Positions 1 to 2,712 of a stretch of 34,761 nucleotides of DNA are shown piece after piece. Numbering within the stretch: position 1 is the first letter of the stretch; each line of letters begins with the position of its first letter. A model generated the notes under the pieces. It was not told the origin of the DNA. It saw nothing but the letters and a program-made list of their open reading frames with translations, and searched no databases. Source of the stretch: Gammaproteobacteria bacterium (lineage in GTDB: Bacteria; Pseudomonadota; Gammaproteobacteria; PS1; Pseudothioglobaceae); NCBI GenBank assembly GCA_028599035.1, contig JAQRMT010000004.1, positions 1 through 34,761 on the forward strand, given 5' to 3'. Both the position numbers and the translations under genes were made by a program.

Positions 1-2
1 TA

Positions 3-71
3 ATTGGCACAGCGTTATTTTTATATGTTTTATTGGATAAAAAACATCTTAAGCCAAAACAACACACATAA
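3..71 (+). CDS. C-terminal end of a truncated ORF (possible membrane protein), stop overlapping the attC-like site
   Basis: Frame 3 from the window edge reads ...IGTALFLYVLLDKKHLKPKQHT*, a hydrophobic stretch with a basic tail; the TAA at 69-71 overlaps the attC-like site. Upstream part is outside the window. Confidence 0.4.
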   Translation: MGTALFLYVLLDKKHLKPKQHT

Positions 72-125
72 CAAATCATTCCAGCGGACTGGCTACCGCC
101 CGCTCGCTGAATTCAAGCGTTAGTG
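66..125 (+). other. Integron attC-like (59-base element) recombination site
   Basis: CATAACAAATCATTCCAGCGGACTGGCTACCGCCCGCTCGCTGAATTCAAGCGTTAGTG. Outer TAAC/GTTA core-like boxes, inner CAGCG/CGCTG boxes at equal spacing, imperfect palindrome. The right arm GAATTCAAGCGTTAG resembles the right arm of classical attC sites. Confidence 0.55.
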
Positions 126-142
126 CCACAAAGGAATAAACA

Positions 143-477
143 ATGGTCTATATGGCTGCTATTATTGATTGACATTCTAAAGCAGTGTTGTCATACAGAA
201 TACCCAACGCTTGAAGAAACTGGGTATCACAATATCTATGGATGGCAAGGACAGGGCTACAGATAATATCTGTATTGAACGCTTCTGGCGAAGCGCAAAA
301 TGCGAAAGAATTTATCTGAATGAATATCAATCCATTGGTGAGCTAGTCACTGATGTAGACGATTATATTGAATTTTATAATGACAGGAGATTCCATGAAA
401 TATTGAAATATAAAAAACCAATGGATGTGTGCCAAGAAAGTATAAAATTAAACCAGAAAAAGAAGAGGGCTTCTTGA
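143..477 (+). pseudogene. Degraded IS3-family (OrfB/DDE) transposase remnant
   Basis: Frame from 143 reads MVYMAAIID*HSKAVLSYRIPNA (in-frame TGA where W is expected), then a frame change/deletion to LKKLGITISMDGKDRATDNICIERFWRSAKCERIYLNEYQSIGELVTDVDDYIEFYNDRRFHEILKYKKPMDV, typical of the IS3 rve C-terminal region. Confidence 0.85.
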
Positions 478-522
478 GGTTTGCTATATAAGAAAATTTA
501 AAAAGTTGTTAAAGGTTTTGGG

Positions 523-951
523 GTGATGTTAAAAATGTTTATGATTGAGTACAAAGATATTGGATGGTGGTATTGGCTAGTAACGGCGATACTGCTTACT
601 GCTGGGGTGTTAGGAAATGAGCTGGGCTTTATTTCGGCTATTGGGCTGACATCCTTTCAACTAATTCACTATATTATCAGAGAGAAAGGTGTTAAGGCTT
701 TTCCTGTTCAGGTGCGTTTTTGGTATCTAACACTTCTTATTGTGTCCTTGCCAGAGCCAATGCAGTGGCTATACTGGGTGCCTTGTGTTGGAACTTGGGC
801 GCAAATAATTTTTGGCTATTGTGCAATGGCTCGTTTGGTCTCTCTATGGCCTTGGAATAGAAAAGAAAAACTATCACTAAAGCACCTGATAAAAACATTT
901 CTATCTCGTCCTGTCAGAGGAAATATTCAACAAGGTTTCTCAAGAAAATAA
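523..951 (+). CDS. Conserved-looking small multi-pass membrane protein, function unknown
   Basis: 142 aa ORF with several hydrophobic segments and a basic C-terminus; several alternative starts (523 GTG, 526 ATG, 535 ATG). Confidence 0.65.
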   Translation: MMLKMFMIEYKDIGWWYWLVTAILLTAGVLGNELGFISAIGLTSFQLIHYIIREKGVKAFPVQVRFWYLTLLIVSLPEPMQWLYWVPCVGTWAQIIFGYCAMARLVSLWPWNRKEKLSLKHLIKTFLSRPVRGNIQQGFSRK

Positions 952-957
952 ATTAAC

Positions 958-2712
958 TTAACTCGTTGAATTTATCCATTGTTTTTGTTGTTTTAAAGTG
1001 GCCTTATTTGCTTTATTATCAACTGTTAAAGTGCAATGTGTTTTTTCACTATGGGCGATAATAAGTGGTATTTCACTGGGTAATTCGTCTCTTAAAATAC
1101 CAATCTTAATACATTCGCCCTCAGTGTAGCCGTCCATCGCTTTGCTCAAATCTTTGGCGGACAGTTTATCGTTATTAATGCTGGTAATTTTATCCCCCAC
1201 ATACAAGCCTGAGGTTTGTGCGCAGGTGTTGTCGAAAATATGCGTAATAACGGCATGTTCCTGTGTTTTATTGATGGCAAATCCATAGATCGATAAATCG
1301 TTTTTCTTGTGGATAAATTCACAGTTAATACCGATATATTCAAATGCTTCTTTAAGTGGCAAATCATCCACGCCATATAGATATTGTGCAAAGAAAGGAG
1401 TGAAATCACTTTGCGTAAGGTGCTCAATTACTTGTTGTGCGGTATTGTCTTCTAATCCACTTGCTTGATAATTACCCCAAATCAGGCGTAAAACATCGTC
1501 TAACGAGTGTTGGTCATTAGTGCGTTTGCGTATCTCAATATCCAGCACAAACGCTAATAATGCGCCTTTGGTGTAATAACTTACAATTGCATTTGGGGCA
1601 TTCTCATCTTGTTGATAAAACTTTGTCCATGCGTCAAAACTGGACTCTGCCAGTGATTGTTTGTAACGACCTCTGCCTTGTTGCACTTTGGTTACAGTTT
1701 GTGCAAATAGACTTAAATATTGCTCGATAGAAAGTAGCTCAGTGCGTAATAATGAAAGCTCGTCATAGTAGGAAGTCCAGCCTTCAAATATCCACAGTTG
1801 CTCGGTGTAATTTTCACGACTCATATTCAGCTCGTGAAAACTGGCAGGTTTAATGGTTTTTATCCACCAAGCGTGGAAATATTCGTGCGAGCAAAGTGCC
1901 AAAAAGCGGGTGTATTCGGGCGTAATGTCTTGTTGCTCTTGGGTGGGTAATTCTTTTCTAGCGCAAATTAAACTGCTGGATTTTTTGTGCTCTAACCCTC
2001 CATAATCCTTACTGGTTGCCAAGGTTAAAAATAAATAATCATCAAAAGGAATATTGCCACCGAAAAAATCAATATGATGCTGGCAAATACACATTAAATC
2101 TTTTCTTAATCTGGCAATATCAGTTGAATGTTCGCCAGTAATGGTCATGGCGTGTGGTGTGCCTGCTACGCTAAATTCAAAACGGGTAAAGTCTGCCATC
2201 TCCACAGGGTGGTCAATCAAATCTTGGTAATTATCAGCTGTGTAAAACTCCGCACTTTGTTGCTTGTCTTTTAGCGTTAAACTGGTCGCACAACTCCACT
2301 GCCCTATTACATTATCTGATGGGTAGTTAATTAACACTTCGCATGGATTGTCCTCAAAACCCAGTGGCTGTAAAAACACGCTACTGCCATTAAAAAACGC
2401 ACGCTGGCTGGTTAAATAAGCACAGCGCACTGACAAATCAAAGGCATAAATTTCATATTCCAAAGTAATACTGTTAGTGCATGGGTAGGTGATCCAGTGG
2501 TTTTTATCAAGTTTCTTCATCTTCACTGCTTGATTGCAACTGTGCGCCTTAATGCTGACAATATGCTTGGCAAAATCACGAATTAAATAACTGCCTGAAA
2601 TCCAGTTTGGCAATGAAAATACTTGCCCCAGTGGATTAGGATTATCAAGCGTTAAACGCACTTGAAAAACATGTGCATGCGTATCTTTGGGTGTTATTTG
2701 ATACTTAATCAC
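958..2712 (-). CDS. M61 family metallopeptidase (glycyl aminopeptidase-like) with C-terminal PDZ domain
   Basis: 584 aa; SHEYFHAWWIKTIKP zinc motif (HExxH-like), GWTSYYDEL, PDZ-like QTSGLYVGDKITSINNDKL. Confidence 0.9.
   Translation of the reverse strand: MIKYQITPKDTHAHVFQVRLTLDNPNPLGQVFSLPNWISGSYLIRDFAKHIVSIKAHSCNQAVKMKKLDKNHWITYPCTNSITLEYEIYAFDLSVRCAYLTSQRAFFNGSSVFLQPLGFEDNPCEVLINYPSDNVIGQWSCATSLTLKDKQQSAEFYTADNYQDLIDHPVEMADFTRFEFSVAGTPHAMTITGEHSTDIARLRKDLMCICQHHIDFFGGNIPFDDYLFLTLATSKDYGGLEHKKSSSLICARKELPTQEQQDITPEYTRFLALCSHEYFHAWWIKTIKPASFHELNMSRENYTEQLWIFEGWTSYYDELSLLRTELLSIEQYLSLFAQTVTKVQQGRGRYKQSLAESSFDAWTKFYQQDENAPNAIVSYYTKGALLAFVLDIEIRKRTNDQHSLDDVLRLIWGNYQASGLEDNTAQQVIEHLTQSDFTPFFAQYLYGVDDLPLKEAFEYIGINCEFIHKKNDLSIYGFAINKTQEHAVITHIFDNTCAQTSGLYVGDKITSINNDKLSAKDLSKAMDGYTEGECIKIGILRDELPSEIPLIIAHSEKTHCTLTVDNKANKATLKQQKQWINSTS

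Follow-up and report, generated by a model that had tools for sequence, protein, structure and literature searches.

The left end of a contig from a gammaproteobacterium of the family Pseudothioglobaceae carries an imperfect palindrome that overlaps the end of an open reading frame (ORF). This locus raises the question of whether the palindrome is an integron recombination site (attC) and, if so, to which integron it belongs. The window analysed is the whole of contig C66 (34,761 bp), from a genome of 1.30 Mb in 131 contigs that is 98% complete. The site lies 66 bp from the contig end and, as C66 starts at base 1 of the window, the sequence further left is unreadable. The features of the locus, with the basis of each assignment, are the following.

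3-71, + strand: 3′ end of a truncated cassette ORF, ending in ...IGTALFLYVLLDKKHLKPKQHT and a stop codon; read from the sequence, the ORF being cut by the contig end
66-125, + strand: attC recombination site, 60 bp; from the sequence, covariance models R1 and R2, and homologous sites in the own genome and 20 other genomes of the sampled family
66-72, + strand: R'' core box ACATAAC, within which the cassette ORF has its stop codon TAA (69-71); from the sequence
81, + strand: first extrahelical base, C on the top and G on the bottom strand; column 16 of alignment A2, fitting the conserved bottom-strand G of L''
from 82, + strand: L'' of the attC; from the sequence
88, + strand: second extrahelical base, A on the top and T on the bottom strand, 7 nt from the first; invariant column 23 of alignment A2
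to 109, + strand: L' of the attC, the terminal loop between L'' and L' being short; from the sequence
119-125, + strand: R' box GTTAGTG, with the crossover at G119/T120; the box from the sequence, the crossover by analogy with cassettes having both ends visible
120-142, + strand: probable first bases of the next cassette or of the flank, TTAGTGCCACAAAGGAATAAACA, ribosome-site-like; inferred from similar cassette starts
143-529, + strand: truncated IS3-family transposase remnant; from dispersed copies in relatives and matches to rve_3 and NF033516
958-2712, - strand: flanking chromosomal gene, by inspection encoding an M61-type peptidase, which anchors the integron locus on the left; from the gene order of the relative G002

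The boxes reported by the first-pass annotation were found exactly as described: TAAC (69-72) and CAGCG (82-86) are separated by 9 nt, as are CGCTG (105-109) and GTTA (119-122), the right arm reads GAATTCAAGCGTTAG at 109-123, and the stop codon of the ORF ending in KPKQHT falls within R''. Of this ORF 22 codons are visible, the contig end having removed the rest. An attC is bounded by R'' (YAAC) and R' (GTTR) boxes around an imperfect palindrome of about 55-140 bp, and here ACATAAC and GTTAGTG enclose 60 bp. Published attC sites have a conserved bottom-strand G in L'' and extrahelical bases 6-8 nt apart (PMC2727003). When the bottom strand was inspected for such bases, as the first-pass annotation had proposed, both were present, corresponding to C81 and A88 of the top strand. 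To the right of the site, the IS3 remnant interrupts whatever stood there, including any next cassette; dispersed copies in relatives align to window positions 143-208 and about 214-529, and positions 211-474 match rve_3 and NF033516.

Boxes of this kind could occur by chance, and scans for the motif alone lacked significance. The palindrome YAAC-box5...rc(box5)-GTTR was found three times in the window versus 2.4 expected from Markov-shuffled sequences, while a looser motif, TAACN(38-58)GCGTTAG, turned up in 31 of 100 shuffles. The bottom-strand hairpin was also weak or marginal (MFE -8.9, z -1.34), with mismatches in the upper stem and a canonical stem that is not the MFE fold, and Rfam gave no match across window positions 1-1500. 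Homology gave a different result. A BLAST search of the own genome revealed a second copy on C38, 82% identical to the window site (E 7e-6). An alignment of nine sites from the same lineage (A2) keeps R'', R' and the bulged C and A, and five pairs of the stem showed compensatory changes, none of 500 shuffles being equally good. Covariance model R1 scored the window site at 67.3 bits; this model includes the site and is circular for it, so an independent model, R2, was built from 19 sites, all from other genomes. R2 provided the covariance-model check that had been suggested, returning a strong match of 55.7 bits (E 1.6e-12), the only one in 34.8 kb at E<=10, with E-values that are rough because the calibration was short. 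The same model recovered the sites on C38, C104 and C71 of the own genome and scored sites at integron-integrase loci of other genera, such as Thiomicrorhabdus. An E-value of 1.6e-12 from a model holding no sequence of the own genome refutes a chance match, to which we assign a practically nil probability. At the sequence level, it is homology, not the palindrome or the hairpin, that proves the window site to be an attC.

A generic dispersed palindromic repeat (REP or MITE-like) that merely resembles an attC would also be compatible with a palindrome at chance level and with the similar copies dispersed in the genus. The first-pass annotation had named such a repeat as the observation that would overturn its reading. 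Within the genus the palindrome is indeed found repeatedly, though at the ends of cassettes and in the orientation of their ORFs: the copies sit 3′ of ORFs, with the stop codons within R''. Among 50 sites of the genus, ORFs of at least 60 codons ended in frame at the TAA of R'' in 10 cases versus 2 for each other frame. Moreover, cassettes with both ends visible start with GTTRRRY, complementary to their own R'', and are preceded by attI or another attC. In the own genome, these are the cassettes of C38 (GTTAGCA...ORF...TGCTAAC), C56 (GTTAGCC...ORF...GGCTAAC, directly behind attI, with a 97-bp attC and then the start of a second cassette) and C71 (GTTAGTG...ORF...CACTAAC, behind another attC). 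The orientation relative to ORFs, the cassette starts, the attC matches beside integrases of other bacterial genera and the apparently intact integrase of the genome refute the repeat, whose likelihood we judge to be very slight. Two further observations concern single units of the own genome. A cassette-like unit on C104 (L020, 798-1547, - strand) contains an FkbM-family methyltransferase gene behind an attI flank of a second type; the unit starts with GTTATAC, which is no match to its R'', ACCTAAC. For the C38 cassette, an empty-site comparison gave no clean empty site, the two flanking genes not being adjacent in relatives, and the left flank was attI-like.

The first-pass annotation had also advised a search for further attC sites and an integrase gene. 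Both are present in the genome, in which we found, besides several attI sites, no fewer than five additional attC sites; the sequence upstream of the window is unreadable. C121:247-1200 encodes an integron integrase (TIGR02249, 430 bits versus a cut-off of 265). Aligned to V. cholerae IntI4 (2a3v) over residues 14-328, the protein keeps R, K, HxxR, H and Y, as well as the integron-specific insert. We take these residues, read off the alignment, to have the catalytic roles that they generally have in tyrosine recombinases, and the integrase is, judging by its sequence, apparently intact. Upstream of the gene lies AAGGAAATATGTCCTTATAATAATAG/TT, which is common to G004 (another genome of the genus), where it also stands beside intI and is then followed by a cassette. 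This sequence was taken as the putative attI, the part conserved beside intI in both genomes being ...CCTTATAATAATAG/TT. With the site ending a cassette ORF, the R2 match, and the integrase, attI and further attC sites in the same genome, the attC interpretation was borne out, and we hold with high confidence that the window attC is an integron cassette site and a member of an integron.

Four near-identical attI copies were detected in the own genome, at C121:57-150, C38:1-95, C41:74-166 and C56:12932-13025 (L248, L256, L267 and L262, respectively), and three of the four have behind them only a 5′ fragment of intI. A second attI type occurs at C38 and C104, and in G005 it adjoins a different integrase-like gene. 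Contig C38 begins exactly at the attI crossover. On C121, attI is followed by a GTTCACAC...GTGTGAAC hairpin and then by the contig end. At L001 (1-59) and L177 (1-75), and also on C9 of G004, a perfect GTT...AAC hairpin stands behind attI where a cassette would ordinarily start, the hairpins being GTTCACAC...GTGTGAAC and GTTAGATGCGACCGC...GCGGTCGCATCTAAC. In addition, C71 (L018, 8920-9822, + strand) encodes a second IntI-like recombinase that scored below the cut-off (186 bits), has HxxR apparently replaced by QTFR, lies near two attC sites and has relatives in G005, G007 and G075.

The position of the window site relative to the C121 integrase was examined by gene order. In G002, a relative with a complete chromosome, the order is ilvE-aroK-tolC-M61, 1.2 kb with one apparently unrelated gene, and then ttcA-lpxL. 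In the own genome, these genes are found on two contigs: those from ilvE to M61 lie in the window, which ends on the left with the attC, and C121 starts on its left with attI-intI-ttcA-lpxL, in an orientation that agrees with the M61 side on C66. Since G002 has the order M61-ttcA-lpxL and the two halves of the own genome match in orientation, the window attC is probably the distal end of the integron of the C121 integrase. We regard it as likely that C66 joins C121, so that the window attC would be the distal end of an integron located between M61 and ttcA and broken by the assembly. An assembly gap separates the two contigs, and a single attC is visible within the window. Further attI copies are located close to the ends of C38, C41 and C56, so another partner for the window attC is possible. 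As to the claim that an array or an integrase-less cluster (CALIN) lies to the left, the end of an integron whose integrase is on C121 is more likely than a CALIN; the upstream sequence is unreadable. A possible orthology of the window attC with the G002 attC at 1540516 was rejected, as that site lies beyond lpxL. At the M61 position of G006, L243 shows, beside the attI at 818705, a large cassette with what is apparently a restriction-modification pair (by inspection) and a truncated attC.

The main competing explanation accepts the attC as real and places its platform elsewhere or considers it lost: the site would then belong to a stray single cassette (SALIN) or to a CALIN, as a remnant of decay or an insertion at a secondary (attG) site. 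Isolated attC units are indeed common in the genus; the complete G002 chromosome has 11 attC matches spread across it and no integrase over the cut-off, the C38 and C104 cassettes of the own genome stand alone behind attI-like sequence, and several sites of G002 and G006 (AATAAATA/GTT) have no attI-like flank. Against this, synteny places intI-attI beside the window locus, G006 has a cassette behind attI at the same M61 position, and an attI-like flank, not arbitrary sequence, precedes most of the single units found elsewhere. We therefore consider a SALIN or CALIN improbable, and the integron between M61 and ttcA is the reading that we prefer.

Further analyses of the family showed attC matches in 21 out of 60 sampled genomes and an integrase over the cut-off in 6, the G004 copy being apparently damaged at its C-terminal end. 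The attC sites were often single and dispersed, and many single units were preceded by an attI-like flank of 45-90 bp, in some cases together with a 5′ fragment of intI. At E<=0.01, attI copies numbered four in the own genome (plus two flanks of the second type), eight in G004, six in G011, three each in G006 and G003, and one in G002. In G004, G011, G006 and G003, each of the dispersed attI sites had a TATAAT/TATACT-like box at a distance of about 8 bp in front of the crossover, and the cassettes that followed were mostly different. Genomes of the genus carry several dispersed attI sites, an unusually large number, often without an integrase, which is the less expected part of the findings and lies outside the window. 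In the literature searched, no description of multiple attI sites was found, which is weak evidence given that only open-licence papers were covered. As many units carry an attI-like flank, copied or decayed attI platforms fit better than arbitrary targets, and attG insertion as a general explanation was set aside for most units. Near 711k and 1285k of G002 (L149 and L151), two single cassettes have in common a non-attI left flank ending in AATAAATA/GTT, which is a possible recurrent secondary target. A tentative extension would be a distributed integron, in which several attI sites of the chromosome, each having a -10-like box and a mostly different cassette, would share a single integrase or have none, the window attC being part of one such unit; we consider this possible, though doubtful.

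In the preferred reading, the window attC would most likely be the site of the last cassette in a chromosomal integron between the M61 gene and ttcA. With its bottom strand folded into a hairpin by the C121 integrase, the site would be cleaved at R' and recombined with attI or a further attC, and cassettes would thereby be inserted, excised or reshuffled as circles. The integron system may still be active. Because of the imperfections in its own stem, the window attC may recombine at a low rate.

The findings show that a genome of 1.3 Mb, from a sulfur-oxidiser lineage rich in symbionts, has a system for gene capture whose integrase is apparently intact, although restricted gene acquisition is often assumed for such a lineage. 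Integrons of the genus, being in many stages of decay and dispersal and having visible ends at attI as well as attC, also lend themselves to a natural comparison, in which scattered landing sites can be tested against decayed platforms.

The window attC itself is a standard kind of site. Like the attC sites (59-base elements) of chromosomal integrons, it has an R''-L''-L'-R' layout with a GCGTTAG right end, two extrahelical bases 7 nt apart, an unpaired central spacer and a stop codon within R''; unlike them, it has a short terminal loop, only 60 bp in all and mismatches in the upper stem, which make it a weak folder. Chromosomal integrons and integron elements in such symbionts are already known. 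Integrons are therefore less unexpected there than the first-pass annotation supposed: Table 1 of PMC10295459 includes CALIN and In0 elements from Bathymodiolus thiotrophic symbionts, the same kind of host, and G004, in the genus of the window, carries dispersed attC sites and intI. According to papers citing Loot et al. (2024), SALINs and insertion at attG sites likewise involve single cassettes dispersed over the chromosome; in contrast to such attG insertion, many units here carry a 45-90 bp attI-like flank. Finally, the table of PMC10295459 lists elements without attI, locus or dispersal, whereas the present analysis gives the integrase, attI, locus and cassette boundaries for another genome.
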